Program-made: the position numbers and the translations under genes
Source: Ferruginibacter sp.
GTDB taxonomy: Bacteria; Bacteroidota; Bacteroidia; Chitinophagales; Chitinophagaceae
DNA: 64,000 nucleotides
Assembly (NCBI GenBank): GCA_028288705.1
Contig: JAQBNH010000005.1
Coordinates: forward strand, 62,001 to 126,000
Reading direction: 5' to 3'
The notes under the pieces: generated by a model
The model's database searches: none
What the model was told of the DNA's origin: nothing
Seen by the model: the letters and a program-made list of their open reading frames with translations, nothing else
Part shown: piece by piece, positions 5,068-31,400 of the stretch
Position numbering within the stretch: position 1 is the first letter of the stretch
How the letters are laid out: every line of letters starts with the position of its first letter

Positions 5068-5084
5068 CATTAAACACGAAAAAA

Positions 5085-10315: not shown

Positions 10316-10350
10316 TACTTGTAGTCTGTTTTAAAAAAAATCTTTTCCTG

Positions 10351-10620: not shown

Positions 10621-10632
10621 TACAAATTGAGA

Positions 10633-10703
10633 AGTAAAAAACTCAGACGCGCTGCCTCGCGATGATCGCCGCCCCCGAACGTTCGGGGGTCTCCCGACCA
10701 ACG
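10633..10703. repeat. GGTC-hairpin dispersed repeat (family B, long form)
   Basis: AAGTAAAAAACTCAGACGCG, GCTGCCTCGCG and CCCCCGAACGTTCGGGGG (a perfect palindrome) followed by TCTCCCGACCAACGG. Confidence 0.75.
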
Positions 10704-10827
10704 GAATTGCGAAAAACAGTATCAGTGATTAGAATGGAATAAGACGGGGCGTACCCGTTTATTTTACGCGGACTTTGCGCTGTAATTCCCCCCGGAAGAA
10801 CGACATAATGCGCGAATTTGTTGTTGC

Positions 10828-11274
10828 ATGATTCCAAAAGATACAATTCGCGCTCTTGTAAAAAAGCGATTCGCTGACGCCAGGATTTTGTTTAGAAATG
10901 ACAGGTATTCAGCTGCGATGTACCTATGCGGTTACTCCCTGGAACTCGGGTTAAAACACGGTATCTGCACGATTATGAAATTTGACAATGGATTTCCTGA
11001 AAATAAGCAGGAGTTTAATACGTATTACCTGGATACAACAAAGACATTTCTAAGAAGTACGATCAGAGAACTGCGGGACATACGCCATCATAGACTCCAG
11101 GATTTACTCCGCTATTCCGGTGAGCAAGTAAATATTGAGAAGAATTTTGCCGAAGCCTGGAATGTTGCCATAAACTGGACTCCTGAAATGAGATACAAGA
11201 ATGATGTCATTAGGAGAAAAAGGGTGGAAAGGTTTATTCAGTCTGTCAGGGTTATTTTGAATGAAATAATGTAA
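10828..11274 (+). CDS. HEPN-domain protein
   Basis: A 148-residue all-helical protein with the hallmarks of a HEPN fold: an N-terminal helix KKRFADARILFRNDRYSAA, the membrane-independent YLCGYSLELGLKHGI helix (about 32-46), and RDIRHHRLQDLLRYSG (about 88-103), which contains an R-x4-H arrangement (Arg, DIRH, His) as in catalytic HEPN RNases. HEPN proteins commonly act as RNase toxins or as accessory parts of nucleotidyltransferase pairs; no MNT-type partner is present here. A DUF2188 gene follows after 23 bases on the same strand, which makes a two-gene operon likely. Whether the His is catalytic cannot be decided from sequence alone. Confidence 0.7.
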   Translation: MIPKDTIRALVKKRFADARILFRNDRYSAAMYLCGYSLELGLKHGICTIMKFDNGFPENKQEFNTYYLDTTKTFLRSTIRELRDIRHHRLQDLLRYSGEQVNIEKNFAEAWNVAINWTPEMRYKNDVIRRKRVERFIQSVRVILNEIM

Positions 11275-11297
11275 GTAAATTTGTAAAAATTAAAGCG

Positions 11298-11522
11298 ATG
11301 TCAAAGAAAAATCAACATGTTGTTCCTTTAGGCAATGGTTGGGCCGTTAAATCTGCGGGAGCTGACAGAGCAACTGTCATTACGAATAAGCAGTCTGATG
11401 CTATTAGTGCTGCGCGGGATATTGCAAAAGCCAACTGTACAGAATTAATTGTACATGGCAGGGATGGAAAGATCAGGGAGAGGAATAGTTATGGGGCTGA
11501 TTCTTATCCGCCTAAGGACTAA
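11298..11522 (+). CDS. DUF2188 protein
   Basis: A 74-residue protein with the DUF2188 pattern: HVVPLGNGWAVKSAGADRA at the N-terminus, an alternating helix with AISAARDIAKAN, a central strand ELIVHGRDGKIRERNSYG and the acidic/proline end SYPPKD. The family is small, soluble and of unknown function, often found beside toxin-like or stress genes. Its position 23 bases after the HEPN gene suggests that they form one unit; an antitoxin role is only an inference. Confidence 0.75.
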   Translation: MSKKNQHVVPLGNGWAVKSAGADRATVITNKQSDAISAARDIAKANCTELIVHGRDGKIRERNSYGADSYPPKD

Positions 11523-11529
11523 CGATAAA

Positions 11530-11612
11530 AGTTAGCTAACCACAAGGAGTAAACGCGCCATTCCAGTCAATTTTCTTCACGCTTTCTTTCCGAGGCCCGG
11601 ATGAAGAGAATT
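11530..11612. repeat. family A repeat, 3'-end fragment
   Basis: Only the last block of the element is present (GTTAGCTAACCACAAGGAGT, AACGCGCCATTCCAGTC, CGCTTTCTTTCCGAGGCCC); the hairpin part is missing. Confidence 0.75.
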
Positions 11613-11619
11613 TATAAGT

Positions 11620-11692
11620 GAAAAGTAAAAAGTAAAAAACTCAGGCGCGCTACCTCGCGAAGATCGCCGCCGTCTGGTCTCCCGACCAACGA
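11620..11692. repeat. GGTC-hairpin dispersed repeat (family B, long form)
   Basis: AAAACTCAGGCGCGC, CTCGCGAAGATCGCCGCC and then the hairpin CGTCTGGTC TCCC GACCAACG. Confidence 0.75.
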
Positions 11693-11765
11693 CAATAATT
11701 AAAAGTAAAAAGTAAGAATTAAAAAGTAAAGCTGGAGCCACACTGCATGGCCATTCCGAATTGCC

Positions 11766-12158
11766 AATGCTGAAGTCACAGTAGCACAAAAGCTAAATCA
11801 GGGCTCCTTCCCAAATCGGGCAGTAATCGATTTGGGGCTCTTTTTTTGTTTCTTTTTTGGAGAAGCAAAAAAGAAAGACGAAAAATTAATTAATGTATGT
11901 TATTGTTCTTTTTCTTAACAAAAAGAACCAAAAGTCATGGGCTGCGGAATGAAAGCTAAAAATTTCCTTTCATGGCGGAAAGAAAACAAGTTCCATCATA
12001 TGAACAATGCCACGCTATTGTGCGACTTACCAGCTAAGAATATATCCAGGCTTTAGTTCAACTGTTTTCTTTCTTTAAACAGTTAGCTAACTACAAAGAT
12101 TAAACGCGCCATTCCAGTCAATTTTCTTCACGCTTTCTTTCCGATGCCCGGATAAAGA
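11766..12158. repeat. family A repeat with terminator-like leader, copy 4
   Basis: The leader (11766-11880) carries CCCAAATCG/CGATTTGGG, a 9-bp stem followed by a T-run, and TTTCTTTTTTG/CAAAAAAGAAA, an 11-bp stem. The core starts at 11901 with GTTCTTTTT/AAAAAGAAC (11905-11928) and continues through the GAAAACAAG/TTGTTTTC pair to GCTTTCTTTCCGATGCCCGG. Confidence 0.85.
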
Positions 12159-14029: not shown

Positions 14030-14863
14030 GTGAGTTTACAAGATACAGAAGCATTAGTGCTCCCTTTTTTAAAATGGCCTGGTGGTAAGCGTTGGTTTGT
14101 GAAAAAGTATTCTGATCTATTGCCCTTAGATTATAACACTTATTTAGAACCTTTTCTGGGTAGCGGCGCTGTATTTTTCCATTTGAAGCCAACTCGGGCA
14201 ATCCTCTCTGATTTGAATCCTGACGTTATTGCTGCTTACAGTAGCATCAAGACCGATTTTAAATTTATAAAAAGAAGCCTTCAGTATCATCAAAGAAAAC
14301 ACAATGAAGATTATTATTACCAAGTAAGAAAAAAGAAAACAATCAGCGAGTGCCAACAGGGCTCTAAAATGCTTTATTTAAATCGCACGTGTTTTAACGG
14401 AATTTATCGTGTGAATCAAAATGGGGAGTTTAACGTACCCATTGGTAGTAAGGAAAAGGTTTTGTTAGATACCGATGATTTTGAGTCTATTTCGAAGCTG
14501 CTACAATCAGCGCAAATTTTCAAATCAGATTTCGAGTTTGTAATAGACAAGGCAAAGTCAGGGGATTTTGTTTTTGCTGATCCTCCCTACACAGTAAGAC
14601 ATAATTTAAATGGGTTCATCAAATATAATGAACAGTTATTCTCTTGGGCAGACCAAGAAAGATTAGCCTCGTCGCTGCTCAGAGCAAAAAATCGAGGCGC
14701 AAAAATCGTTCTAACGAATGCGAATCATTCTTCCATCAAAGAATTGTATGAAGGGTTTGGCTTTCATCTCCGGGTAGTTTCAAGATACTCTTCTATTGCT
14801 GCTAGTGGCGCGGATCGTAAACAATTCGAAGAACTAGTTATTTTATCACATCCAAATAAATGA
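14030..14863 (+). CDS. D12-class (Dam-like) DNA adenine-N6 methyltransferase
   Basis: A 277-residue enzyme starting at a GTG. It carries the D12-class signatures in alpha order: the AdoMet-binding N-terminus FLKWPGGKRWFV (about 13-24), PFLGSGAVFFHL (41-52), and the catalytic DPPY at 184-187 (VFADPPYTVRH). Expected to transfer methyl groups from S-adenosylmethionine to N6 of adenine; Dam-like enzymes often target GATC, but the specificity is not readable here. It is the first gene of a tightly packed operon: the HerA gene starts 3 bases after its stop. In this setting it most likely marks self DNA for the downstream nuclease machinery, which is inference. Confidence 0.93.
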   Translation: MSLQDTEALVLPFLKWPGGKRWFVKKYSDLLPLDYNTYLEPFLGSGAVFFHLKPTRAILSDLNPDVIAAYSSIKTDFKFIKRSLQYHQRKHNEDYYYQVRKKKTISECQQGSKMLYLNRTCFNGIYRVNQNGEFNVPIGSKEKVLLDTDDFESISKLLQSAQIFKSDFEFVIDKAKSGDFVFADPPYTVRHNLNGFIKYNEQLFSWADQERLASSLLRAKNRGAKIVLTNANHSSIKELYEGFGFHLRVVSRYSSIAASGADRKQFEELVILSHPNK

Positions 14864-14866
14864 AAA

Positions 14867-16879
14867 ATGTCTCACGGCTCTGTAACCCAATTATTGAATA
14901 ATACATCTATCAGCGGCAATCCGATCGAATCTTTAAGAAGCTTTCTTGATACGGAATCACGAATGGAGGCCGCAAAACAATTAGAAAAGATGCGATTTGT
15001 TGGGTACGTCCTGGAATTAGGTTATGACACGGCGAAGATAATCACGAGTGATCCATATAAGCTCGCCGTAGGTGGTATCCCTCGAGGCTCGTTTTTAATC
15101 ATGACACCAATAAATGCAGGTAACACTCCTTTGCATTTTACGTTGTTGCGTGTAAATGGTGTGTCTCCTACACCGCTGACAATGCAAGTTCAGCAAACGT
15201 ACTTTGAACTCCACAAAAAGTCAATGCCTGAGTTAGACCGATGGACTCAGAGTGAATTACAATGGGGTGCTTTAAGCTGTAATGTGCTGGGTATGTTTTA
15301 TGCGAACCCCGTAGAAAACCAGAAACTTGCCTTTTCCGGTGACGTAAATAATGTCGTAAGTGCACACCGTTACAAAGTGTTTGCACCCGACGATGAATTA
15401 TTGAAGTTAATCGTGGACGGAATGGTTAATATCGATCATAAGTATTCGATTGGTGCGTTGAGGACTATGGAATGTGGATTGTTCAGCCCTGGCGCAGCTG
15501 GAAAAATTCCTGTTTCAATATCGATGCGTGATTTTATGGGAACTCGTACGGCTATGTTTGGAAAAACCAGGTTGGGCAAATCGAATGTCGTAAAACTTAT
15601 TGCTCAGGGACTGATAGAAACTACAGGGGATAAAAAAAATGTCGGTCAGATAATTTTTGACATTAATGGTGAATACGCAAATGATAACCCACAGGATGGA
15701 AACAAATCTATCAGGTCAGCCTATCAGGAGCGTTGCCAGGTATATGCCCTTACTGAGAGGGCAGAAACACCATCGCTCCCATTAAGACTAAATTTTTACG
15801 AGCAGCCTGACAGCATTATCGAGGTCATTGCTTCGATGTTAGCTACTGACAACAAAAATGCAAACTATATAAAAAGCTTTGCTAGTGTCAAGCTTCCTGC
15901 AATCAGTTCCATTGCTACAATGGAAGAAAGTGATAAGTGTAGAGCCATTAGGAAAGTTCAATTGTTTTGGGCGATTTTAAAAAAAGCAGGTTTCCCCGCT
16001 GTTGAAAGCAAGCTAAAATCGCTTGGTCTCACTAGCCGAAATACCAAGCATTTTAACCCTTCTTATAAAGCTGATTTAAGAACTCAGGCTTACCAACATC
16101 ATGGCCAAAGCGCAGCTCCTGCCCACCCTGACTCATTAGATCAACTTGTTACGGAGATGGAGGTAATGGCTCAGTTTCGCCGAGATAATGGCAGCAGTCT
16201 ACTCTTGAAATCGGTAAGTGGAAAAGATATTTTTGACGCTGATGATGTAGCAATGTTGGACTTCTTAAATCCCAGTTCTGGTTCGGGGCCCTCTGTCTTA
16301 AGGTCCTACATAACCTACCATTCTCCGAATGCAGGCGACTTTTTAATTGAGATACTTGGATTAATTGATGGTGGAACTACTGTGATCTTAGACCTGGGAA
16401 ATGCCACTGACCAAATCAGGAGGTATTTTGCCGACATGATTTCGAAAGAAGTTTTCGGCCACCAGGAGAAAAAATTCGTGGAAAATAAATTAGGTGATCA
16501 TTTTATACAATTATATTTTGAAGAGGCGCACAACTTATTTCCGCCGGACGGGAAGGATTTAACAGGCGTGTATGCCCGATTCGCCAAAGAAGGGGCTAAG
16601 TTTCACGTAGGTATGATATACTCGACGCAATCGCCATCAACGATTAATAAAGAATTACTTGCACAAACGGAAAACTTCTTCGTAGGTCATTTGTCAAGTC
16701 AGGATGAAACAAGGGCACTATCAAGGGTTCAAATTGCATTTGACGGTAGTGAAGAAGACATTTTAAAAGCGAAGACCCCCGGCTACATGCGCATGCTTAC
16801 TATGTCACACAGATTTGTGATCCCCATCCAAGCTAATAAATTCGAAGCCACTGCCTCTGTTGTCAAACCATTAAATTAA
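14867..16879 (+). CDS. HerA/FtsK-type DNA-translocating ATPase
   Basis: A 670-residue ATPase of the HerA (DUF87) type. The N-terminal ~200 residues are the barrel/HAS-like region; then come Walker A GKTRLGKSN (232-240), a Walker B-like IIFDINGEYAN (262-272), and late in the protein YFEEAHNLFP (550-559), the HerA DEAH-like motif, followed by STQSPSTIN. HerA forms a hexameric ring that threads duplex DNA and is normally paired with the nuclease NurA, whose gene begins 5 bases downstream here. This strict adjacency makes a HerA-NurA resection complex very likely. It is followed by the NurA gene and an AddAB-like helicase-nuclease. Confidence 0.92.
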   Translation: MSHGSVTQLLNNTSISGNPIESLRSFLDTESRMEAAKQLEKMRFVGYVLELGYDTAKIITSDPYKLAVGGIPRGSFLIMTPINAGNTPLHFTLLRVNGVSPTPLTMQVQQTYFELHKKSMPELDRWTQSELQWGALSCNVLGMFYANPVENQKLAFSGDVNNVVSAHRYKVFAPDDELLKLIVDGMVNIDHKYSIGALRTMECGLFSPGAAGKIPVSISMRDFMGTRTAMFGKTRLGKSNVVKLIAQGLIETTGDKKNVGQIIFDINGEYANDNPQDGNKSIRSAYQERCQVYALTERAETPSLPLRLNFYEQPDSIIEVIASMLATDNKNANYIKSFASVKLPAISSIATMEESDKCRAIRKVQLFWAILKKAGFPAVESKLKSLGLTSRNTKHFNPSYKADLRTQAYQHHGQSAAPAHPDSLDQLVTEMEVMAQFRRDNGSSLLLKSVSGKDIFDADDVAMLDFLNPSSGSGPSVLRSYITYHSPNAGDFLIEILGLIDGGTTVILDLGNATDQIRRYFADMISKEVFGHQEKKFVENKLGDHFIQLYFEEAHNLFPPDGKDLTGVYARFAKEGAKFHVGMIYSTQSPSTINKELLAQTENFFVGHLSSQDETRALSRVQIAFDGSEEDILKAKTPGYMRMLTMSHRFVIPIQANKFEATASVVKPLN

Positions 16880-16884
16880 GACTT

Positions 16885-18219
16885 ATGCCTTACTCATCTG
16901 GAACTCGCCTACCCGGCGAAATGGCTTCTAAGCTTGGACATATTTCTGTTATAGAAAGTCCTTGGGTTCAATCGTTAGTTGAAGATTTCGAGAGTTCAGA
17001 ATTCAGCAGTGAAGAGGAAGTGACTGAAATATGGCAGGAGTTTGATGCAGTCAATATTCTGCCTTTAAAGAATATCTGGGCGGTAGACGGTTCGTTCGTT
17101 GCAGTCAAAACCTCTGGAAAGCCTCCCAAAGAAGTATCATTTGTAAAGACCGCTCTCCTAACCGTAGATAGGTTGAAGCTTGACAAAATTGATAAAGAAC
17201 ATCCGCATCCATTGTTAATGCAGGATATCTTAAGGGATAGCGCAATTTTCCATGCTACTGTCTTTCCACTTAAAAACGTAAAGACATCACTCGGTTCAAA
17301 CTATGACGCCATCCGTAACATAGTAAATGATTCTTTGAAAGTTGATGATAACGGAGTGTTTTATGAAACTTTGAAATGGCTAGCGTACCGGAAATGGGAT
17401 ACGACTGAATTTAGTAGCCCTGGGTTTGAATGCCCGCACTGCCACTTTAAAAACGACAAGGGACTTCCATTTGATGCTGATGGAGCCAATTGCGAGGACT
17501 GTGATAAGCCTATCTATCTTACAGACATGATCGGGTTTCATCTAGATATGGACGAAGATAGCGCTCCGGACTCGGTTGCTTCTGCTTACATGTTAGTAAT
17601 GGAACACCTGATGCTTTTTACTCCAATACGTTTGTTATGGTCCCATTCAGATCAGAACATTATCTCTGAGACCTTATTTATAAAAGATGGACCATTAACC
17701 TTACGAAGTCAATATTCTAAACTAATACCCAACATCCGATCCTTTATTCAACACGCTAAAAATATTAAAAGGCCAGTTCATATTATTGGACAGGAAAAAA
17801 GTGGGGCTTTCTTTGATCATTTGGCTTCGATAGTCCAAACTGTTGCCCCCCATGATCGTGGGGAAAAATTATCATTTGCTCCGCTAACACATGACTACGT
17901 TCGTCGCCAGGTTTATCGTTCTCCTGACCTTTCAAACCCGTATGGTAAAAGAACCAACTGGGGAGAAAAACTTTTTGTAAAAATAGATCCGGGAACTTAT
18001 ATGGTGTTGAATGTGCCTACCGGAATTTATGTGGATGATGGTAGTTTTCCCCTTGCCACTGATTTGATCGGCGTAGAACGCATTCTTGCCACTTTGCCAG
18101 AGATAGTTAGTAGCAAATTCGAGGGAGCTCTATTTCCTGTCGAGTTAGCTAATGGGGTGGCATCAATGTCAAGTTATCCATCAGCTAAAATACTTGAAAG
18201 ATTTCTGGATGGCAGATGA
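16885..18219 (+). CDS. NurA-type nuclease with inserted Cys4 motif
   Basis: A 444-residue protein with NurA-family signatures: the N-terminal metal-binding Asp68 in IWAVDGSF, a second Asp268 in FIKDGPLTLRSQYS, the GQEKSGAFF phrase near 302-310, and a late KIDPGTYMVLNVP strand. It also has CPHC (183-186) and CEDC (203-206), a Cys4 knuckle between the two catalytic Asp residues. NurA is an Mn-dependent exo/endonuclease driven by HerA in DNA end resection. The start is the first ATG after the HerA stop, a 5-base gap. A 42-base gap separates it from the helicase gene. The extra cysteines may bind zinc; whether this is usual among bacterial homologues I cannot check. Confidence 0.85.
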   Translation: MPYSSGTRLPGEMASKLGHISVIESPWVQSLVEDFESSEFSSEEEVTEIWQEFDAVNILPLKNIWAVDGSFVAVKTSGKPPKEVSFVKTALLTVDRLKLDKIDKEHPHPLLMQDILRDSAIFHATVFPLKNVKTSLGSNYDAIRNIVNDSLKVDDNGVFYETLKWLAYRKWDTTEFSSPGFECPHCHFKNDKGLPFDADGANCEDCDKPIYLTDMIGFHLDMDEDSAPDSVASAYMLVMEHLMLFTPIRLLWSHSDQNIISETLFIKDGPLTLRSQYSKLIPNIRSFIQHAKNIKRPVHIIGQEKSGAFFDHLASIVQTVAPHDRGEKLSFAPLTHDYVRRQVYRSPDLSNPYGKRTNWGEKLFVKIDPGTYMVLNVPTGIYVDDGSFPLATDLIGVERILATLPEIVSSKFEGALFPVELANGVASMSSYPSAKILERFLDGR

Positions 18220-18261
18220 TAATTTAATTTGTAAAAAACTTTTTTTGAAAAAAATAATTAG

Positions 18262-20853
18262 ATGAAGTCGAGCAGGGTTATAACTATTGAAGAATTGTGG
18301 CGGATACATAATTTTACACCAAACGACAATCAACGAGAGGCAATACTTTATGGTGAGGGACCTTTATTACTGACTGCCGGTCCAGGATCTGGTAAAACCA
18401 GGGTGTTACTCTGGCGAACCTTAAATTTGATCGTTTTTCAAAATGTTCCACCAGAAGAAATCTTTCTTACCACGTTTACTGAAAAAGCAGCACTACAGCT
18501 CAAAGAAGGGCTCCGAACATTGCTGGGTACTGTCACTAACCTTACAGATAAGCCCTATGACATTTCTAAGATGTCACTCGGGACCGTTCATTCCATTTGT
18601 CAATCACTCATTACCGATAGGAGATTCTCACCTGGGGGTGCTCGTAAACATGCGCCCGTACTTATGGATAGCCTTTCGCAGTACTTCAAGGTTTACAAGA
18701 AAAGCTTTTGGCAAGAGTTATGGGTTGCAGGCGGCTTTACGGATGAAGAAAGTGCTCACAATTTTATTTCAAATTATTTTTTGGGAAAGGAAATAAATTC
18801 CAGGCACGTTGCTGTTACAGAGTGTATAGCCTTGTTTAACCGGTTTTCAGAAGAAAATATCAATCCGTCAACCGTACAAACAACTGATAATTCTTTGAAA
18901 GCTCTGCTGAAAATGTATGAGTATTATAAAAATTCACTCCAGATAAACTCATCCGTTAAACAAGTTGATTTTTCGCTGCTGCAACAGGATGCCTTTCAGG
19001 CAATTGAAAGCTTTGCCAATTCCGGGAATGTTTTCAAGCACCTTATCATAGATGAGTACCAGGATACAAATGCAATCCAGGAGAAACTTTACTTTGCTTT
19101 ATCCAAGGGCTCTAAAAACATTTGTGTTGTCGGTGATGATGACCAGGCGCTATATCGTTTTCGTGGAGCAACCGTGGAAAATCTTGTTGAATTTGAAAAT
19201 AGATGTTTTGCGAACATAGGGCAAACGCCAAAGCGTATTGACCTTGATATTAATTATCGTTCACGAAAGAATATTGTTGATTTATACAGCCACTTCATTG
19301 TACAAACCAACTGGGAAAATGAAACAAAAAAAGGTAGCTATTATCGTGTAAATGACAAGGTAATAAAAGCAAATAGTGTCGACCTAAAGCCGTCAGTGGT
19401 TGTTTCAACAAAGGATAAGGCTGAAAACGTTTATGCTGAAATCGCAGAATTTGTTCTTGATTTGAAGCGTACGGGTAAAATTCACGATTATAATCAATGC
19501 GCTTTCTTATTTCCTTATCTAAAGGGAAGCACAAGGGTAACAGGTTTTGCTAACGCCTTTGAGGCATTAGGTATTCCGGTGTACGCACCCAGAGCAAAAA
19601 GTTTTATCGAGGTAGATGAAGCTAAAGCCATATTTGGTTTGTTTCTCAAAATATTTGACAGACCACATTATGGAAATACCGGAAGCCAGAGCATCATCAA
19701 TTTTCGTAACTGGATGATTGAATGCATGCAAATTGCTGATACCCTGATGAGGGAGGATAAACTTTTGAAGGAATTTGTAACCGATAAAAAGAATGAGGTT
19801 GCCATTGCTTTAGAAGATTATAACTTGCTGTTAGCATTCATAAAGAAGAAAAAATGGGGTGTTAAGGATCCTTTTAAGTTGGCGATGATCCGTGAATTTG
19901 CCGAATTGCCAAGGCTTTCCCCGAAAGCTAGAAAAAACTTAACTAATTCTTACTTCAAAAAGGTAATTGAGTTCAAGGAGAGAGATGGTGAACCCTACAG
20001 TATCGACTATATCATAAACCGCACAACATCGCTTGATTGGACGGTACTGGATTTATTTTATCAGCTAAATGGATTCCGCCATTTCCGTGATATGTTTCTA
20101 TTGGCAGAAGATGGTACTGACGAGGGCCCGGTTTGTAATCTTGGCTTGCTTTCTCAGTACATATCTCGTTTCATGGACCAATATGGGACCATATTAACTG
20201 CATCATTTTTATCTGAAGAAAAGTTTGTAAGAGTATTTTTTGCCTCTTATGTGTACGCATTGTATCGCCTAGGCGAAAGCGAATATGAAGATGCGGATGA
20301 TCCCTTTCCTAAGGGTAGAGTACCTTTCCTTACCATTCATCAGTCCAAAGGCTTAGAGTTTCCAGTTGTGGTATTAGGCGCAGTTTATAAAAGGGAGAAG
20401 CCTGCCGATAAAAAGGAAATTATTATTCGTAGCTTATTAAGCAAAGCAGGGGAGCCTTTGGATAAAATATCCTGTTTCGATAACATGCGTATGTTTTACG
20501 TCAGTCTTTCAAGAGCACAAAACCTATTGATATTGCCTCGCTACACACATAGTTCTGCCGCTACCGAAGTATTCAAAAATATTTTTGCAAACTACCCTTT
20601 ACAAGGTATTCCTGAATTAGACAAGGAGCAGGTTCCGGTTGCAGAAGAAAGCAAACAGGACTTAGGTAAAAGCTATAGCTATACTGCAGATTACTTGTTA
20701 TACAACAAGTGTCCAAGAAATTACATGATCTTCAAAAAATATGGTTTTGTGCCTTCACGGTCACAGACAATGTTGTTCGGTTCGCTGGTTCATAAAACGA
20801 TTGAAGATCTGCACCATTTATTAATGCACGACCGTAAAACTGCTGCTGTATGA
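18262..20853 (+). CDS. UvrD/AddA-like SF1 helicase with the beginning of a RecB-type nuclease
   Basis: An 863-residue superfamily 1A helicase. Visible motifs: Q-like FTPNDNQREAI (18-28), Walker A AGPGSGKT (39-46), motif Ia TTFTEKAA, motif II IIDEYQDTN (262-270), motif III GDDDQALYRFRGA, motif IV LDINYRSRKNI, motif V TIHQSKGLEFPVVVLG, and motif VI MFYVSLSRAQNLLIL. The last 60 residues leave the helicase and show NKCPRNYMIF with Cys817 and GSLVHKTIE (840-848), which is the start of a RecB/AddB-type nuclease domain. The rest of that domain is encoded by the next gene, which overlaps it by 4 bases (ATGA). It probably loads on DNA ends and unwinds them 3'-5'. Confidence 0.9.
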   Translation: MKSSRVITIEELWRIHNFTPNDNQREAILYGEGPLLLTAGPGSGKTRVLLWRTLNLIVFQNVPPEEIFLTTFTEKAALQLKEGLRTLLGTVTNLTDKPYDISKMSLGTVHSICQSLITDRRFSPGGARKHAPVLMDSLSQYFKVYKKSFWQELWVAGGFTDEESAHNFISNYFLGKEINSRHVAVTECIALFNRFSEENINPSTVQTTDNSLKALLKMYEYYKNSLQINSSVKQVDFSLLQQDAFQAIESFANSGNVFKHLIIDEYQDTNAIQEKLYFALSKGSKNICVVGDDDQALYRFRGATVENLVEFENRCFANIGQTPKRIDLDINYRSRKNIVDLYSHFIVQTNWENETKKGSYYRVNDKVIKANSVDLKPSVVVSTKDKAENVYAEIAEFVLDLKRTGKIHDYNQCAFLFPYLKGSTRVTGFANAFEALGIPVYAPRAKSFIEVDEAKAIFGLFLKIFDRPHYGNTGSQSIINFRNWMIECMQIADTLMREDKLLKEFVTDKKNEVAIALEDYNLLLAFIKKKKWGVKDPFKLAMIREFAELPRLSPKARKNLTNSYFKKVIEFKERDGEPYSIDYIINRTTSLDWTVLDLFYQLNGFRHFRDMFLLAEDGTDEGPVCNLGLLSQYISRFMDQYGTILTASFLSEEKFVRVFFASYVYALYRLGESEYEDADDPFPKGRVPFLTIHQSKGLEFPVVVLGAVYKREKPADKKEIIIRSLLSKAGEPLDKISCFDNMRMFYVSLSRAQNLLILPRYTHSSAATEVFKNIFANYPLQGIPELDKEQVPVAEESKQDLGKSYSYTADYLLYNKCPRNYMIFKKYGFVPSRSQTMLFGSLVHKTIEDLHHLLMHDRKTAAV

Positions 20854-21698
20854 TAACTGATTACGAAGTAGAAAAAAGACTCGAAGAAATATTTGCTCAG
20901 AACTATGAGCTGCTCAAGCTGGAAGGTGGCCATGCGTTAACCGAAGCAGGTCAGAAAGACGCCTTTAACCAGGTATTGTATTACTTCCGTAAACTGAAAG
21001 ATGTAGCCACAAAAGTCACCGATACTGAAGTGAAGCTTACGTTGCCCGATCAGAAGACACCTGAAGGACGAAGCTTTACTATTGAAGGAATTGTAGATAT
21101 TGTTCGTGAGGATGATGAAATTTGGATGTACGATATCAAAACCCATGATCCGTTTTACGTGGCTGCCAACAAGCATTTGTACGAAAAACAACTCAATGTG
21201 TATGCTTATATTTGGGAGAATCTGAGAGGCAACCAGTTAGATCATACCGCTGTTATTTCTACTGTAATTCCCGATGCATTGAAGGAAGCTGAAATAGTTG
21301 GCGATACGGACCGTATTAAAAGGGAGCTAGAGAAATGGGAGCCTATTATTGATATTCCCTACAGGGAAGACAATGTAAAAGACACAATCCATGATTTTGC
21401 GTTGGTTGTGGATTGTATAGAGAAACATTGCTTCACGCCACCACCATTTACAGTACTCGATGAAAAAATTTATGGTACGAACAGCAAATTTGCCACTCGT
21501 ATCTGCCGCAACTGCGATGCCCGTTTTTCTTGTGGCTCATTTAGAGAGTACGCCACTAAATTACAAAAGGGCAGTACAATGAATTTCAAAAAATATTATG
21601 ATGATTACGGCACGGATGCTGAGCAAGAGGATTTCGTTAATGCCTCTATTAACCTAGATAAGATAAACGTCACCCCTGAAATAAACTTTAATTCTTAA
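20850..21698 (+). CDS. RecB/AddB-type PD-(D/E)XK nuclease module (C-terminal part of a split domain)
   Basis: A 282-residue protein with the RecB-family nuclease signature: Glu60 in TEVKLTL, Asp83 in EGIVDIV, YDIKT with Asp95 and Lys97, Gln114 in QLNVYAYIWE, and at the end CRNCDARFSC (Cys219, Cys222, Cys228; C-x2-C-x5-C). That spacing is the three-cysteine half of the Fe-S cluster seen in AddB and related nucleases; the first cysteine and the GxxxHxxxE motif lie in the preceding gene. The start overlaps the helicase stop (ATGA at 20850-20853). The frame upstream of this ATG closes at a TAA 12 bases earlier, so translation probably re-initiates rather than reading through. It may assemble with the helicase into one functional AddAB-like nuclease. 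Confidence 0.9.
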   Translation: MITDYEVEKRLEEIFAQNYELLKLEGGHALTEAGQKDAFNQVLYYFRKLKDVATKVTDTEVKLTLPDQKTPEGRSFTIEGIVDIVREDDEIWMYDIKTHDPFYVAANKHLYEKQLNVYAYIWENLRGNQLDHTAVISTVIPDALKEAEIVGDTDRIKRELEKWEPIIDIPYREDNVKDTIHDFALVVDCIEKHCFTPPPFTVLDEKIYGTNSKFATRICRNCDARFSCGSFREYATKLQKGSTMNFKKYYDDYGTDAEQEDFVNASINLDKINVTPEINFNS

Positions 21699-21709
21699 TT
21701 ACTTTAATT

Positions 21710-23575
21710 ATGTCAATAGGAAGAATAAAACCGTCTTTTCATTTTGAGACAGAACGAATCGAGCAGTTAAAACAAATTGCACCTGAGGCTTTTGCTGATG
21801 GCAAAATCAACTGGGAATCGTTACAGGAAGCGTTGGGTATTTATTTAGAAGAAGAGGATATAACATCTGAACATTTTGGATTGTTTTGGCCGGGGAAGAG
21901 AGCTGCTCGTAAAATAGCCAGCCTTCCAAGCGAGGGTACATTGGTACCTTGCATGGATGAAGCGGTGGATCAAGAAAATACTCAAAATATTTTCATTGAG
22001 GGGGAGAACCTTGAAGTATTAAAACTTCTGCAAAAAAGTTATGCTAATCGGATTAAGCTCATATTTATTGATCCTCCATATAATACGGGTAAAGATTTTA
22101 TCTATGAAGACGATTTTACCGAAACTATTGATGAATATCTAAGACGTACAGGTCAATTGGATGAAGAGGCAAAGCCAATTTCTGCAAATACAAAAGCAGA
22201 TGGACGATTTCATTCAAAATGGTTGAGTATGATGTATCCGCGGCTTAGATTAGCAAGGAATTTATTAAAGGATGAGGGTTATATTTTCATAAGTATAGAT
22301 GATAATGAAGTTCATAATCTTAGAGAACTAATGAACGAAGTTTTTGGGGAGGAAAATTTTAAAGGGTGTGTAATATGGCAGCATAGCTTACAACCAAAAG
22401 GTTATTTGGGTAAATTTTCAATTCATCATAACTACTTATTGTGTTATACCAAGTCCTCAGAAATACTTATTGGAAATCTACAACGGACTGATGAGCATAA
22501 TAAGAATTATTCAAATCCAGATAATGATCCTAATGGACCATGGCGAACAGGGGATGTTAGGAATTCGCTCTATCGTAAGAATTTAATTTATGATATTAAA
22601 ACGCCTTCAGGTAAGAAAATTTCTCCTCCCCCCAATGGGTGGCGTTGGAGCAAAGAGACTCTTCAAGAAAAAATTAGTTCTGGTGAAATTGTTTTCTCAA
22701 ATGATGAAACTAGAATTATCAGAAAAATTTATTTAAATAATTTAGAGGGAAGAACACCTGAATCAATTTGGTTCGGCAAGGATTGTGGAACGACTCGTGA
22801 CGGAATACAAGAGCTTAAGGATTTGTTTAATGACAAACCACCATTCGATACACCCAAGCCAACAACACTTATTCAAAAGATTTTAGAGCTTACAACAGAT
22901 GCAAAAAATGAGGATATTGTTTTAGATTTTTTTGCGGGTTCTGGTACAACTGCTCATGCTGTCTTGAAAAGCAATTTTGAAGATCAAGGTAATCGCAGAT
23001 TTTTAATGATACAGATGGAAGAGCCAATCGATCTGTCTCTTCCATCTGGCATCAATGCCAAAAGTCTTAAACTTAAAACCATTTCTCAAATTTCCAAAGA
23101 ACGTATAAAAAGGGCGGGCAAGCTTCTAAGCTCAGAATATAAGAAGAAAAATAAGGATAATGAGACAGCTTATAAGTTCAAATCTTATAAGCTGTCTCAT
23201 TCAAACTTTAAACCTTGGAAAAATTATACTGGTAATAGTATAAAAGAATTAGAGATACAATTTGAAAAAAGCACAACCCCGCTTGTAGAAGATTGGGAGT
23301 CTCAAAATTTACTAACCGAGGTTCTTTTGATTGAGGGATTTCCTTTAGATAGCAAAATTGAAGTTTTGAATCAGTATAAGAAAAATGAAGTTACAATGGT
23401 TACATCAGATTTCTGCGAGCACAAGCTGCTGGTTTGCCTTGATAAAAAAGTGTATGCAGATACCATAAAATATCTGCAATTAAATGCAGATGATATTTTT
23501 ATTTGTTTAGATAGTGCCATCTCAGACCAGGATAAAATTACACTACAAGACAAAGGCTTAATCAAAACCATTTAA
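21710..23575 (+). CDS. mod: type III restriction-modification Mod (beta-class adenine methyltransferase)
   Basis: A 621-residue Mod protein with beta-class motif order: catalytic IDPPYNTG (DPPY at 121-124) before the AdoMet site VLDFFAGSGTTAHAVL (about 407-422). The region between them holds the variable target-recognition part. This size and the following Res gene are usual for type III systems. Type III Mod methylates one strand of an asymmetric site and also guides Res. It starts 11 bases after the nuclease gene and ends 7 bases before res. A perfect 18-bp inverted repeat sits inside the coding sequence at 23159-23201. Confidence 0.94.
   Translation: MSIGRIKPSFHFETERIEQLKQIAPEAFADGKINWESLQEALGIYLEEEDITSEHFGLFWPGKRAARKIASLPSEGTLVPCMDEAVDQENTQNIFIEGENLEVLKLLQKSYANRIKLIFIDPPYNTGKDFIYEDDFTETIDEYLRRTGQLDEEAKPISANTKADGRFHSKWLSMMYPRLRLARNLLKDEGYIFISIDDNEVHNLRELMNEVFGEENFKGCVIWQHSLQPKGYLGKFSIHHNYLLCYTKSSEILIGNLQRTDEHNKNYSNPDNDPNGPWRTGDVRNSLYRKNLIYDIKTPSGKKISPPPNGWRWSKETLQEKISSGEIVFSNDETRIIRKIYLNNLEGRTPESIWFGKDCGTTRDGIQELKDLFNDKPPFDTPKPTTLIQKILELTTDAKNEDIVLDFFAGSGTTAHAVLKSNFEDQGNRRFLMIQMEEPIDLSLPSGINAKSLKLKTISQISKERIKRAGKLLSSEYKKKNKDNETAYKFKSYKLSHSNFKPWKNYTGNSIKELEIQFEKSTTPLVEDWESQNLLTEVLLIEGFPLDSKIEVLNQYKKNEVTMVTSDFCEHKLLVCLDKKVYADTIKYLQLNADDIFICLDSAISDQDKITLQDKGLIKTI
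23159..23201. repeat. perfect 18-bp inverted repeat inside mod
   Basis: The left arm is 23159-23176 and the right arm 23184-23201, fully complementary with a 7-base loop (TTCAAAT). It encodes residues around ETAYKFKSYKLSHSN of the Mod protein, near the C-terminal part after the AdoMet motif. It would form a very stable hairpin in mRNA or a cruciform in DNA. Confidence 0.95.
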
Positions 23576-23582
23576 TGCTGCT

Positions 23583-26500
23583 ATGGCTAAGAATATAAAA
23601 TTAAAATTTGAAAGCAATCAGGAACACCAGAACATTGCTGTAAACAGTGTGGTGAATCTGTTTGACGGGTTTTCACAAAACCTTATTGTAAATGAATTTA
23701 GCTCCGATATTGCTCCCAATATTGAACCTTATTACAATCTAGAAGAGAATTGGTTGTTGGATAATTTACACGCGGTTCAGGAAACTAATAGTTTACAGCC
23801 TACCCTGGCCTTGGATGTGGATGATGGTCCTATGCTGGACATTGATGGCTACAATACACACCGTTTTCCTTGTTATACAGTAGAAATGGAGACAGGTACG
23901 GGTAAAACCTATGCCTACCTAAAAACGGTTTTTGAACTTAACAAGCGGTATGGATTCCGAAAATTTATTATAGTTGTTCCTAGCATTGCTATTTATGAGG
24001 GTGTTTATAAGACAATTGAAATAACAAAAGAGCATTTCAAAACATTGTATGGAAATACAACTATGAATGCTATTAAATATGATGGTCAGCAGATTGGGAA
24101 AGTGAAAGATTTTGCTGTTAATCCTTATATCAACATAATGATCATGACTATTGATGCTTTCAATGGTAAAACAAATAATATTTACAAGCCCACTGAAAAA
24201 CTTCCAGGAGAGAAGAAGCCGTATCAGTATATACAGGAGACAAAACCGATATACATTTTGGACGAAAGCCAAAACTATCTTTCGGCTAAAAGCAGGGAAG
24301 CCCTGCGAACCTTAAACCCCTTATTTGCGATAAATTATTCAGCAACCCCTAAAGAAAAACCCAACCTTATTTACCGACTCAGTCCTGTTGATGCTTTCAA
24401 ATTCAATTTGGTTAAAAAAATACAAGTAGAAGGTGTTACAGAACAACACAATCTGAATGATACTGATTTGAGTCTTTTGATAGAAGAAGTAACACGAAAC
24501 AACAATTCTATACAAGCGAGTCTTAAAGCCCATTGTTATGAAAATGGTTCCAAGCAATTAAAATCCATAACGGTTAAGAAAAATGATAACCTATTTGATA
24601 AAACAAAGAATTCAGCCTTTGAGGGATTTGTGGTGGACGATATCAACTTAAAAACGCAACAGGTGTTCTTTACAAATGGTTCTTCGCTTGGAAGTAATGA
24701 TGCACATAGCATTACCCTTTCTAAAGCAGAAATATTTAGGGTTCAGATTGAGCAAACAATCAAATATCATTTTGAACGTCAGAAAGCCTTACGAGAAAAA
24801 GGGATAAAGATTCTCTCCTTATTTTTCATTGATAAAGTTGATAATTACGTACAAGATGATGGTATTATCAAAAAACTTTTTGATGATGCCTTCACTAAGT
24901 ATAAGCATTTGGATAAATCTTTTGCACAGCTTGAACCTCACCAGGTAAGAGAAGGATACTTTGCAAAAAAGAAAAACCAGAAGAAGGAGGAAGAATTTGT
25001 AGATACTGCTATTATAGAAAGTGATAAGTCAAAAGATGATAAAGCGGCTGAAAAGCAGGCCTACGAATTAATAATGAAAAAGAAAGAACAGCTACTGAAT
25101 TTTTCGGAACCTGTATCCTTCATTTTTGCCCACTCAGCATTGCGGGAAGGATGGGACAATCCAAATGTATTTCAGATCTGTACATTGAATACAGCCACAT
25201 CGGAAAGCCGCAAACGGCAGGAAATTGGTCGTGGGCTCCGCCTTTGCGTAAATCAGGAAGGTGAAAGGGTTCAGGAAGAAGGAGTAAATGTGCTTACAGT
25301 TATAGCAAACGAGCATTACGAGAACTACTGTAACGAATTGCAGAAAGAATACAGGGATAGCGGGGATGTTGCTCCGAGTAAGCCTAGCGATGCTCGGAAA
25401 AAACCAGCGAAGCGTAATGACAATGTTTTTAACTCCAAAGAGTTTAAAGCTTTGTGGGATTTGCTGGCACAAAAAACTGATTACGAAATAAAACTGGACA
25501 CTGAAAAATTGGTCACAGAATGCATGAACAAATTAAATAGCCCAAAGACAGTTTTCCCTGAGTCGCAGATTATCATCACCAGAGGCAAATTCGTTATCAC
25601 TACATTTCGTTTTAAGCTTAATAAAGTTTCTGTTGGTTTGGCTCAAATAGATATTTCCATAACAGATACTGATAATGTTGAAAACATTATCAAAGGTCAA
25701 TGGTATAAAGAAGGTTTTGACTTTGGGAAAAAAGTAAGTAAACGTTTATCTGGGTTTAAAATAGTTGAAATTAAAGAGTACAAGTCTGACAGTGTTGTTC
25801 ATTTTGGAAACGGTGAGTCCTTAACGATGGAATCTGAAATATTTCATACTGACAATAAGGGCCATCAGTTGGAAGCCATCACAAAACAAGAAGCTCAAAC
25901 CAATTATCCTGTATTTAATATCATCGACCGCACCTGTAAAGAGACAGGAATAACCAGGCCGACTGTGTTTCGAATTTTCAAAGGCATGGAAGAAGAGAGG
26001 AAAAAACACATTTTCAAAAATCCTGAGGGATTCGCCAGCAAGTTTATAGAGGTAATTCGAGAACAGTTGGCAGATCATGTTGCTGACACTATAGAATATA
26101 AACTTACTGGAGAATTAGAAGCTTTTGACTTCGATGATTTATTCCCGGCTTCAAAGCCATTTCCACAAAAGGAATTAGTAGATGGATCAGAGCACTCATT
26201 ATATGATTGCGTTCAAGTTGATTCAGGTGTTGAGGAGCGGTTCGTAAACAATATCCTTGTTGAAGATGATAAAAGCGGTAACGTTCTGGGATACTTCAAA
26301 TTCCCTCCTTCATTTAAAGTTCGCATTCCAAAAATCATAAAGAATTATAACCCAGACTGGGGTATTATAAGAAAGACCAAAGACGGAAAAACATCGATAA
26401 ATCTGGTCAGAGAAACAAAAGGATCGTTAATCCCCGAACAATTGCAATGGCCAAGTGAAAAAAGGAAGATAAAATGTGCAATCAAACATTTTGAAAGGCT

Positions 26501-26627
26501 AGGCATAAACTACAGACAAGTGACAGGCGAAACATTGAAGTATTGGGAGACTAATAAGCCTACTAAAACCTATCGCCTAGACCTGGAACAAGATAATGAG
26601 AACATCTTATATGACGATGGGCATTGA
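23583..26627 (+). CDS. res: type III restriction-modification Res (helicase-nuclease)
   Basis: A 1014-residue Res subunit. Superfamily 2 helicase motifs: METGTGKTYAYL (Walker A, about 102-113), IYILDESQNYLS (motif II, DESQ instead of DEAH), INYSATPKEKP (motif III), and the SRKRQEIGRGLRLC motif VI. Near the C-terminus, NPDWGIIRKTKDGKTSINLV then RETKGSL gives the D...ETK core of a PD-(D/E)XK nuclease (about 945-970). Cuts DNA 25-27 bases from Mod-recognised sites in characterised type III enzymes. It follows mod by 7 bases. Length and domain order are normal for the family; nothing suggests inactivation. Confidence 0.94.
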   Translation: MAKNIKLKFESNQEHQNIAVNSVVNLFDGFSQNLIVNEFSSDIAPNIEPYYNLEENWLLDNLHAVQETNSLQPTLALDVDDGPMLDIDGYNTHRFPCYTVEMETGTGKTYAYLKTVFELNKRYGFRKFIIVVPSIAIYEGVYKTIEITKEHFKTLYGNTTMNAIKYDGQQIGKVKDFAVNPYINIMIMTIDAFNGKTNNIYKPTEKLPGEKKPYQYIQETKPIYILDESQNYLSAKSREALRTLNPLFAINYSATPKEKPNLIYRLSPVDAFKFNLVKKIQVEGVTEQHNLNDTDLSLLIEEVTRNNNSIQASLKAHCYENGSKQLKSITVKKNDNLFDKTKNSAFEGFVVDDINLKTQQVFFTNGSSLGSNDAHSITLSKAEIFRVQIEQTIKYHFERQKALREKGIKILSLFFIDKVDNYVQDDGIIKKLFDDAFTKYKHLDKSFAQLEPHQVREGYFAKKKNQKKEEEFVDTAIIESDKSKDDKAAEKQAYELIMKKKEQLLNFSEPVSFIFAHSALREGWDNPNVFQICTLNTATSESRKRQEIGRGLRLCVNQEGERVQEEGVNVLTVIANEHYENYCNELQKEYRDSGDVAPSKPSDARKKPAKRNDNVFNSKEFKALWDLLAQKTDYEIKLDTEKLVTECMNKLNSPKTVFPESQIIITRGKFVITTFRFKLNKVSVGLAQIDISITDTDNVENIIKGQWYKEGFDFGKKVSKRLSGFKIVEIKEYKSDSVVHFGNGESLTMESEIFHTDNKGHQLEAITKQEAQTNYPVFNIIDRTCKETGITRPTVFRIFKGMEEERKKHIFKNPEGFASKFIEVIREQLADHVADTIEYKLTGELEAFDFDDLFPASKPFPQKELVDGSEHSLYDCVQVDSGVEERFVNNILVEDDKSGNVLGYFKFPPSFKVRIPKIIKNYNPDWGIIRKTKDGKTSINLVRETKGSLIPEQLQWPSEKRKIKCAIKHFERLGINYRQVTGETLKYWETNKPTKTYRLDLEQDNENILYDDGH

Positions 26628-26793: not shown

Positions 26794-27462
26794 ATGATTA
26801 TGACTAGAAATCCGTTTATCATCGCGAATATGAACAATTGTGGTCTTGCGGATTTCCTAAAAAATGGAGTCGAAAATTATTTTAAGGAGTTAGAAAAATA
26901 TATCAACGACAATGAAGATGAAGATATATTAGCATATGCGAATGAAGCAACAATGGCTTCTTTATTTATGTGTGGTAATCTCAGAGTTAATCCACAGATG
27001 ACCGGAGTACAGGAATACGGCACAATTTGTACAAAGTACGGAAAGGAAGTGCGAGGAAGGCCCGATATTTTTATTAAAGACCAAAAGAGAGCGATTTGGA
27101 TAGAGTGCAAATACCAGAAATCAACTCATCATCTTGGCGATGAGCATTGGGATATTCCAGCCTGGTTAGCTTGGGATAAGGTTAACGTTTTCAACCAGGT
27201 GGAAACCTATTATAATTCCGAATCAGAAAAATTGAATAGCAGCTATGAAGAGCGATTCATAGTAACATTATGCTTTAAAAGAATTCATGTAAATGCTGAA
27301 AAACATAACAAAGAAGTTAAGCAAAAATTGGAAAGACACCAGTCGTCTACCTATGACAGAACTTGGTATTACCAAGTCGGTTTTCTTCCCGGAAAGGAAT
27401 CGATGTCTTATGGGTTAGAAGTTTATGGTACATGTTCTGGGGATTTAACCAGAAAAAAATAG
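26794..27462 (+). CDS. stand-alone PD-(D/E)XK restriction-endonuclease-like protein
   Basis: A 222-residue protein with a PD-(D/E)XK core: a helix Glu in YANEATMASLF, then GRPDIFIKD, then IWIECKYQK (Asp and Glu-x-Lys about 13 residues apart). It follows res by 166 bases, with AT-rich leader sequence that could carry its own promoter, so it may be a separately regulated addition to the island. The fold is common among restriction enzymes, Holliday-junction nucleases and Mrr-like proteins; which of these it is cannot be told from the sequence. A role as an extra DNA-cutting subunit of the system is inference from neighbourhood. Confidence 0.65.
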   Translation: MIMTRNPFIIANMNNCGLADFLKNGVENYFKELEKYINDNEDEDILAYANEATMASLFMCGNLRVNPQMTGVQEYGTICTKYGKEVRGRPDIFIKDQKRAIWIECKYQKSTHHLGDEHWDIPAWLAWDKVNVFNQVETYYNSESEKLNSSYEERFIVTLCFKRIHVNAEKHNKEVKQKLERHQSSTYDRTWYYQVGFLPGKESMSYGLEVYGTCSGDLTRKK

Positions 27463-28498: not shown

Positions 28499-31400
28499 CT
28501 ACTCAACCGCCTTCACCTGCGTCTGCGCATCCCGTTCCTGTAACGTCTTCTTCGTTCTAAAAATATCCGACAACCGATTAAAATCCTTCCGGTAAGATAA
28601 CTGCAGCCCCGAGCGGTTACGCTGTCCCGTGGTAACATCGGTGAAACTGGTACGTGTAAAGCCGACTACGCGAAGGGAGCCGTCTTTATTTAAGAGCCAC
28701 TCGATCGTGATATCCGGCGTGATAAGGCCCTTGCGGTCGAGCTGCGTATAGGGGTTGTTGTAATCCAGGTTGCCGCCGATCAATATGTTGAGGCGGTTAC
28801 TCAATAAGATCTTCAATCCCGCCCGCACATTGGCCTGCAGCTGGTTAGCTTTATTTTGCAGATCCAGTGATGGGTTGATATCAATATAGGTCGAGATGAC
28901 GCCCTTCGTTGCTTTGTCCAGTTCGCGGTTAAAGATATTCGTCAGCCAGCCGCTGATCACGCCGCCGATCGTACTGGTCGCGAGGGAGATCGTATTTTCC
29001 TGCGACAGAAAATTCTGGTTGTCTGTCACGAAGGAATTAAACAGCAATAAACTCGCGACCTGCTTGTTCATGACGTTATCATCATTGCGGTAATCGGCCA
29101 GTCTTTTCACAACGATATAATCGCGGTTCAGTTCTGATTTCTCCGGTAACTGTAATTCGAAACTGATCTTCGGGCTCTTCAGCCTGTCCGTCAGGTGCGC
29201 CGTAATCGTGATGTCTTCTTTCTGCCGGAAACTGTTGCTGGACGTGAGGCTGCTGATATCCACGTTCTTCGCTAAATACTCGGCATCAATATCAATGATG
29301 GCTTCATAAGGATCGCCGTTCCAGGTGATCGATCCCTGGCTGAGCGTAAATGGTTTCTTTAAAAAAGTCTGGAAATTAAACGTGTACTCACCCTTCGTTA
29401 AATTGTATTTGCCGCGCATGGTGAGCGGTTCTTTATTCCCGACACGGATATTTAAATTCCCGACGCCCTGGCCTTTTAAAATATCCCCGGTCTCTTCATC
29501 GAGGATCACATCGATCTTACAGGCTGGGTTAACATTCAAATTCATATTCACGACGATATTGGCAGCGGTGTTGCGGCTTTCGCGCGCATCCATCTCGCTA
29601 CCAAACTGGATGAACTCTATATAATCGATCGCGTTGTTTTCTTTGCTGTTGCCGGTGGGCAAATAAATATGACTGCTGTCTGTCGCACTGGGCTGACCGT
29701 CAATATTCATTTTTAAATTCGTCACAGGGCCCGCCATCGTCATCACCGCAGAACCGATCACGGTTCCGTAAAACTGGCTGTTGTCTTTTTTCGTCGTGTT
29801 CAGTACAAGCATTTTGCTGGTCTCGAAGCGCATGCCTTCAAATGAAAACTCTTTAAAGAAATGATGGTACATTTTTCCGCTCACGGACCCTTCATTACCC
29901 AGCGTATCTTTCAATTTCAGCAGGCCGAGATCGATCACATCTTTACCAAATTTGAGCGTATGGTTGCTGAACAGATATTTACATTGCGTATATGCGACTT
30001 TCACAGAACCGTCCAAAAGCGTGGCTTCGCCGGTGAGGTACTGGTGTCCTTTTCCGCCCGAGACTTTCAGATTCGTTCTCGCAATGCCGTTCATTTTTGA
30101 AAAGATCGTGCCCAGGTATGGCTCCAGGATATTGATGTTAAACCGCTCCGAAAGGAAATTAATATCCATCTGGTTGCCGGTGGAATCTTTGTAATTATAA
30201 TTGCCGTCTACATTAAATACATAGTCCTGATCATCAGCGCTGGTCTTGAATTGCACAATGCCTGTCCCGAGATTCGCATTCGCACTCAGGTTCACTTTTC
30301 CGATATACTTATCGTCCAAAGAAAAACTATCCGCTACGCCTAAAAATTCAATCGTGGTTTTCCCGAAGGGATCACGCACCGTCGCTGTTCCGCTCAACAA
30401 ACCTTTCAAGCCGGGCTTGCTGATGATGAAGGGTGCAAAGTCGCCGATGTTCACATTTTGCATCCGCGCCACCAGGTGCGTATTATCATTCACGTCATCC
30501 AGTTCCGTGGAGAAAACGATCTGCTGGTTCTCATGCACGAACTTCACTTCGTTGGCATCAATGAATTTCTTGCGTAGGGTGATCTCCCCATCTTTCTCCA
30601 GCTGCCAGCGCTTGTCGTTGATCACGAAAGAGGAGGGAAAGAAATGCACGCGGAAGCCATCGCTTAATGTCTGGATGCTGGCATTGAGTTCTGCATCGCT
30701 CAGCGTTTTGCTCGCGCTTGTATTGAGTTTGATCAGGGAGACGTCGTTGCTGGCGGCAAGCTTTAAGCGTGTGCCGGGCAGGTGCAGACTATCGCTCATC
30801 ATGATATCTTCCACGGAGATATCGGCCAACAGCGTGTCCCGGTTACCGTTACCTATTAAGAGCGTATTCGTAAATAATTTATTATCGTAACTGAACTCGG
30901 GCACTTTGGCTTCGAGACTGAGTTCATAGCTGTCCAGTTTCAGCCGACCGTTGATCGTGGAATTATTAAACCCACGCAGCTTTTGATTAAAGAGACGGAT
31001 ATACTCATCTACCTGGTTGGTGCGGATCGCGAAGCTGAAATCCTGTTTACTGTTCACCCAATATTTCGGCACTTTGAAATAAGTGGGGTAGTAGCGCGCG
31101 AGTAACACTTCAAACGCCGCAGGCAATTCTTTGATGCTAAACACGCCATTGATCTCCGCATCGATCTCGTTTGATTGCAGGGACAAACGTTTTTTATTGT
31201 CGACGATCTGCGAACGCAGCGTGAGTGAATCAAATGACAATCGCGTGCTGTCATGTTGCAGCGTCGCGCTGTACACACGTGCCGTACCCAGGAAATTATC
31301 AATATTGTTCCCGGTGAAATTCAGGCTGAACACCCCGTTCAATGTCAGGTTATCATTCGTTAAATGCAATTGCTTCAGGTTTGCGTGTTGCAGGTTCGCA

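Follow-up and report, generated by a model that had tools for sequence, protein, structure and literature searches.

A probable composite of two defence-like modules, Dam-HerA-NurA and UvrD-nuclease-Mod-Res, in a Ferruginibacter contig

A block of seven genes was analyzed in a stretch of 64,000 nucleotides from a Ferruginibacter sp. contig (JAQBNH010000005.1, positions 62,001 to 126,000 of the forward strand; hereafter the window). We conclude, with a probability of roughly two in three, that this block is composite, made up of two autonomous defence modules on one strand, whose biochemistry and role in phage defence we infer. Module A (14030-18219) comprises a Dam-like methylase, a HerA-type ATPase and a NurA-like nuclease, and module B (18262-26627) comprises a UvrD-type helicase, a nuclease (Nuc), and the type III restriction-modification (R-M) proteins Mod and Res. 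The open reading frame (ORF) listing gave seven plus-strand genes with successive gaps of 3, 5, 42, −4, 11 and 7 bases, exactly as an earlier note on this DNA had described, and the gene identities proposed there agreed with family searches and, for NurA, with its relatives and predicted fold (Table 1). The earlier note had also proposed that all seven genes form one anti-phage system, with Res producing breaks, the two helicase-nuclease engines destroying the ends, and Dam and Mod labelling DNA as self. The defence-like character of the genes was borne out, whereas a single system now appears unlikely, since the modules are separable.

Table 1. Genes of the seven-gene block and the border between its modules (window positions; SF, superfamily)
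Feature	Position	Strand	Evidence
Module A gene 1: Dam-like D12 N6-adenine DNA methylase	14030..14863	+	TIGR00571 235 bits, PF02086 168 bits
Module A gene 2: HerA/FtsK-type translocase ATPase	14867..16879	+	PF01935 53.5 bits; nearest solved relative TdpA
Module A gene 3: NurA/TdpB-like nuclease	16885..18219	+	Names of relatives and predicted fold
A/B border	18220..18261 (42 bases)	.	Step in 4-fold-site divergence; shared module A block stops at NurA
Module B gene 1: UvrD-type SF1 helicase	18262..20853	+	PF00580 178.6 bits, PF13361 79 bits
Module B gene 2: remainder of Cas4/AddB-like PD-(D/E)XK nuclease domain	20850..21698	+	PF12705 30.6 bits
Module B gene 3: type III Mod methylase	21710..23575	+	PADLOC MTase_III 594 bits; PF01555
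Module B gene 4: type III Res, SF2 helicase and endonuclease domain	23583..26627	+	PADLOC REase_III 627 bits; PF04851, PF19778

Module A is autonomous. A NurA-alignment scan of GTDB genome contigs gave 97 relatives, the best 80 of which were kept and, together with 2 viral contigs, made up 82 loci, 48 close (at least 45% identity) and 34 distant. Dam was located directly before HerA in 41 of the 42 evaluable close loci (those with HerA present and 700 bp upstream). Other methylases mostly stand in for Dam in the distant loci: among the 28 evaluable ones, a member of methylase cluster c4 preceded HerA in 12 and a member of c3 in 12, Dam followed NurA in 2 and c3 followed it in 1. An adjacent methylase-cluster gene was thereby found in 27 of the 28, c3 and c4 having been defined on the same loci in which they were counted. 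All four methylases checked (one c4, two c3 and one downstream Dam) were D12 or N6_N4, and an SPPF or SPPY motif was present in 26 of 27 c3/c4 members. We refer to this group, defined in the present analysis, as the methylase (MTase)-HerA-NurA cassette; a methylase is directly beside HerA-NurA in 68 of the 70 evaluable loci and in the window. No further gene is common to the module A loci, because the next largest gene cluster after the module A families comprised 6 genes in 4 loci. Furthermore, the distances of HerA and NurA were correlated (Mantel r 0.91), as were those of Dam with each of them (0.66), with 0 of 1000 permutations as high in 41 loci plus the window, relatedness not being removed. 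A HerA tree (72 rows, 17 phylum labels) had the phyla intermixed, and six labels for methylase class and position, or none, required 8 changes compared with a shuffled mean of 28 by a quick method. Among the close loci, 43 had 2 kb or more of downstream sequence; none of these continued into UvrD-Nuc-Mod-Res, and one (L048) had a UvrD-like gene downstream, next to GajA.

Module B is autonomous too. A UvrD helicase of the window type was found in 4 of 394 genomes of the family, and in two of these four, G568 and G853 (18-19 kb fetched), module B stands without module A alongside; the HerA-NurA pair of G853 is of a distant type and lies on another contig. Homologous operons thus largely split into separate units, with 0 of 43 close module A loci continuing into module B and two genomes having module B alone, an outcome that the earlier note had named as contrary to its idea.

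The type III R-M part of module B consists of a Mod of the type III family and an adjoining Res with an SF2 helicase and an endonuclease domain. In a 2017 paper (BMC Evol Biol, PMC5704561), Mod and Res form the most common neighbourhood of UvrD-Cas4 fusions. Module B has the same set of neighbours, namely a UvrD SF1 helicase, a PF12705 nuclease, Mod and Res, and is a split variant of this already described arrangement: the helicase-nuclease unit, described there as a fusion, is encoded in the window not by a single protein but by two overlapping genes that divide the nuclease domain. In the available part of the paper, an unfused UvrD/Cas4-like pair appears only in a non-defence context in Clostridiales. 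The term "AddAB-like" in the earlier note was only loosely right, as genes 4 and 5 are of the UvrD plus Cas4-like (PF12705) kind. Module B does not qualify as Gabija, since the window helicase gave only GajB-like matches and no GajA match was obtained with PADLOC.

The nuclease domain is divided in such a way that CP..Y and G...H are at the helicase C-terminus and the gene that follows carries D...DxK and CxxC.....C. These two genes overlap by 4 bases (ATGA) in the window, L089, L090 and L091, and fused counterparts occur in L112-L114, with PF12705 in L113. A frameshift as the cause of the split was rejected, because the 120 helicase relatives listed of 7,890 were all 835-905 amino acids (aa) long and 116 of the 120 carried both C-terminal motifs. 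UvrD had no match in viral contigs and only weak helicase matches, nothing better, in plasmids and phages. In another phylum, it was found in 1 of 349 genomes as a fused helicase that has a methylase and a ResIII protein alongside, and NurA was not found in the 19-kb stretch of that locus.

The seven-gene arrangement is not due to chance, because the gene order is kept in a second genome (G795), which has all seven genes in different surroundings. The surroundings were judged different because the 19.5-kb stretch of G795 aligns with the window at 14063-22360 and 23260-26614 and nowhere else. The protein identities between the window and G795 were 95.5% for HerA, 96.2% for NurA, 87.4% for Dam, 82.3% for UvrD, 86.4% for Nuc, 86.4% for Res and 64.1% for Mod. 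When Mod was compared in 50-residue steps, its middle was 28-56% identical and its ends were 82-92% identical. The divergent middle is presumably the target-recognition region, and the pattern is as expected if the specificity of Mod had been exchanged. Near the end of this variable region, the Mod gene carries a perfect 18-base inverted repeat with a 7-base loop (23159-23201), which was not listed for the G795 copy. The differences at 4-fold sites were 0.30 (NurA), 0.42 (HerA) and 0.57 (Dam) in module A and 0.61 (Mod), 0.67 (UvrD), 0.67 (Nuc) and 0.70 (Res) in module B, with standard errors of 0.03-0.05 (0.05 for both Dam and Mod). Because this divergence is unequal, HerA-NurA and module B appear to have had different histories.

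Joining of module A with a UvrD-type module is recurrent, since a search of 45 module A genomes, from the 46 close loci L003-L048, at a threshold of E 1e-60 gave a UvrD relative in only two, and in each of these it is placed next to module A. In L113 (Lentibacillus), Dam-HerA-NurA is preceded, at a distance of 252 bp, by a fused UvrD with two N6_N4 methylases and a ResIII/TnsA-like protein. The set in L114 (Methylobacter), comprising UvrD, a methylase and a ResIII/TnsA-like protein, is divergent from Dam and separated from it by 4.1 kb. In addition, a methylase and a ResIII protein precede methylase-HerA-NurA in L064, a ResIII protein is in that position in L076 and at a greater distance from the module in L057, and in L035 a fragment resembling the L113 protein (530 bits), with a sub-threshold Pfam match only, overlaps Dam. 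Type III-like neighbours were thus present in 5 of the 82 loci by sequence search, and in L076 by Pfam; these partners are not close relatives of the window Res, with which the sequence search gave no match. A control of 14 stretches (154 kb) had 0 matches and is too small to judge the 5-6 of 82 loci, because less than one match was expected there at the rate of the 1,095 kb of flanks.

Several of these observations weigh against the composite reading. The full block in G795 and the UvrD genes beside module A in L113 and L114 are also predicted by one joint system, and such a system would further account for the gaps of −4 to 42 bases on a single strand, the ResIII genes preceding the cassette in L064 and L076, and the co-occurrence within the 394 family genomes, where UvrD is present in 4, NurA in 6 and both in 3. 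At 4-fold sites, Dam (0.57) is not clearly below Mod (0.61), which leaves HerA-NurA as the only genes clearly set apart from module B; part of the difference could stem from gene conversion or codon constraint. As for module A itself, Dam is 3.3 kb upstream in the remaining evaluable close locus (L040), and L052, G853 and L097 have HerA-NurA sets with no adjacent methylase. Furthermore, NurA had no matches in Pfam, NCBIfam or PADLOC, and its identity leans on named relatives (three of the five plasmid matches of gene 3, plus some protein relatives in a family of 2,047 proteins) and on a predicted fold. Against one joint system stand the 43 of 45 module A genomes in which no UvrD relative was found at the above threshold, the 43 close loci that do not continue into module B, the separate module B of G568 and G853, and the unequal divergence of HerA-NurA and module B. 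The pairing of modules A and B is genuine and recurs, and the modules may cooperate.

A narrower form of the composite reading is that the two modules are together merely through accumulation in a defence island, their cover being additive. We regard this as possible and clearly short of an even chance, and the estimate does not exclude that given for the composite. Consistent with such accumulation, module A also adjoins Gabija (L048), GmrSD-like (L005) and Argonaute-like (L022; PADLOC 80 bits) genes; in L048 (7080-11017), Dam-HerA-NurA is immediately followed by a GajA with a strong score (980 bits) and a UvrD helicase. The flanks also show an excess of PADLOC models: the proteins flanking module A matched 163 models and the controls 10, figures that count models, none of which matched more than two proteins, so that a few distinct proteins may underlie them. 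The flank list held 110/111 proteins, and 110 of a pool of 131 served as the control, 14 genomes being the source of both sets; 163 models were still matched after removal of L019, a near-duplicate of L012 (95% over 15 kb). On the other hand, order and close spacing are kept in two genomes despite the unequal divergence of HerA-NurA and module B, and a UvrD-type module is beside module A in both of the two genomes holding both.

The spread of module A is sporadic. Besides the window genome, none of the other 58 genus members (59 listed) had NurA, and the six family genomes with NurA were the window genome, G795, G601 (Dam-HerA-NurA), G753 and G544 (HerA-NurA-c4), and G853 (HerA-NurA and two other genes). 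The gene at 28499-33166 of the window was found in 39 of 40 genus genomes. Beyond its 3' end, 8 stretches contained no ORF matching a window gene, so the window has an atypical junction here. HerA matches were found in two Vibrio phage records. In the one examined (L140, PQ189371), the region 1309-5750, between integrase and excisionase labels, carries HerA and NurA in the same orientation, with a methylase, annotated as a Type II MTase, pointing the other way. The sporadic spread, the defence-model matches in the flanks and this phage set beside an integrase suggest that module A is defence-like in character. Among the relatives, L096 (Deferribacter megaplasmid, 2126-5924) has an IS200/IS605 element with TnpB within the HerA gene of its methylase-HerA-NurA cassette. 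In L137 (G853, 5644-11946), HerA-NurA is followed by genes of 693 and 289 aa, and no methylase was found; the NurA of L077 is followed by two genes, of 751 and 293 aa.

The nearest solved relatives of module A belong to the Tdp system, whose TdpAB complex is represented by PDB 8wet, 8wfd and 8y1k (An et al. 2025, Nat Chem Biol). The central domain of HerA matched Pfam DUF87 above the cut-off (53.5 bits), and among PDB sequences HerA matched TdpA best (8wet, E 1.3e-24; the next match 6.6e-10, and HerA 4d2i 1.1e-4). TdpA was also the best solved match for the HerA of one c3 and one c4 representative. NurA is predicted to have an RNase H-like fold, with four near-invariant cysteines (C183, C186, C203 and C206), and its best match by predicted fold was the nuclease chain of TdpAB (TdpB), archaeal and Deinococcus HerA-NurA being weaker. 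By sequence, one NurA profile had no match among PDB sequences and another had nine, all at E 0.5 or worse, and the NurA of L063 had none. A first NurA structure model from a narrow alignment was poor (predicted local distance difference test score 63.4) and was not used. The TIGR00571 score of Dam exceeded its cut-off (235 bits), and its closest solved chain was 2dpm (DpnII methylase 1; E 1.2e-51, 178.9 bits), followed by entries named DNA adenine methylase (105 bits). Because we take these relatives to be GATC methylases, the target of Dam is predicted to be probably GATC or GATC-like.

In the Tdp system, a phosphorothioate mark restrains the TdpA pump while TdpB degrades unmarked DNA. Module A shares with it a HerA-type ATPase, a NurA-like nuclease and a DNA-modifying enzyme that belongs to the system. 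Where Tdp has the phosphorothioation enzyme TdpC, however, module A has a DNA methylase; the library matches of the nine ORFs scanned included no phosphorothioate-making enzyme family, and the seven genes carry two methylases. We read module A, by analogy, as a methylation-based, Tdp-like restriction cassette. Dam would mark host DNA at a short site, and a HerA ring would load on DNA, pump it and feed it to the NurA nuclease, with host methyl marks preventing or stopping HerA-NurA as phosphorothioate marks would in Tdp. Type III enzymes are known to cut DNA with unmethylated sites by means of Mod-Res, two such sites being required. In module B, Mod would methylate its own sites, Mod-Res would cut DNA bearing unmethylated sites, and the two-chain UvrD-nuclease would unwind and degrade DNA from its ends. 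The stacked modules would then impose two independent methyl checks, and module A may feed on ends that module B produces.

It is very improbable that module A is instead a DNA repair cassette, in which HerA-NurA would resect ends as in archaea and Dam would mark strands for repair. Module A has HerA plus the NurA fold in common with the archaeal and Deinococcus pair, but TdpB was the stronger fold match and the nearest solved relatives are TdpA and TdpB, not archaeal HerA-NurA. The presence of NurA in only the window genome among the 59 genus genomes, the defence-model matches in the flanks and the use of three methylase clusters in the same role also argue against it. A further difference from the archaeal and Deinococcus pair is that no Mre11 or Rad50 family was among the library matches of the nine ORFs.

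Module A was not found as a described system in PADLOC, NCBIfam or open-licence PubMed Central papers, the NurA genes tried matched no PADLOC 2.0 model, and the window NurA matched no NCBIfam model. As far as these libraries and open papers extend, it would represent a Tdp-like system in a methylase form that has not been catalogued. Going further, MTase-HerA-NurA may represent a widespread unnamed R-M class, a methylation-gated counterpart of Tdp in which the HerA ring would read methyl marks while pumping and only unmarked DNA would reach NurA. Its methylase classes would be swapped, and it would be stacked repeatedly with type III-like R-M and UvrD-nuclease, the cuts of one feeding the other. 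This proposal is tentative and falls a little short of an even chance. If module A works as we infer, restriction without a sequence-specific endonuclease, by a pump and nuclease checked by base methylation, would be common, and module A could explain some apparently solitary methylases. The reading makes a clear test possible, namely whether DNA methylation stops HerA-NurA.

Other HerA systems were also compared. DUF4297-HerA (PMC11291478) and Sir2-HerA resemble module A in having a HerA ring with a partner enzyme. In module A, however, a NurA-like protein takes the place of DUF4297 or SIR2, and there is a methylase gene next to the pair. Neither DUF4297 nor SIR2 was among the library matches of the nine ORFs, and the NCBIfam anti-phage HerA models scored 54.6 and 40.1 bits, their cut-offs being 800 and 850. 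HerA/FtsK capture systems (PMC10853773, PMC12839542) likewise have a HerA/FtsK pump in anti-invader operons, sometimes with DNA modification; they differ in that NurA is named in neither text, as far as the available parts go.

A promoter scan gave 38 predictions compared with 41.4 in shuffles and was uninformative on separate promoters, terminator-like sites numbered 17 compared with 10.5, and neither an Rfam search nor a tRNA search gave a match. Downstream of the block, a 222-aa ORF (26794-27462, plus strand) lies 166 bases past Res; it had no Pfam, PADLOC or NCBIfam match and shows by eye a PD...ExK-like stretch (RPDIF...IECKY). L089 has a different-looking ORF at this place. Upstream of the block, a 148-aa HEPN-like protein is encoded at 10828-11274 (plus strand; Pfam 25.6 bits, PADLOC PDC-M28A 27 bits).

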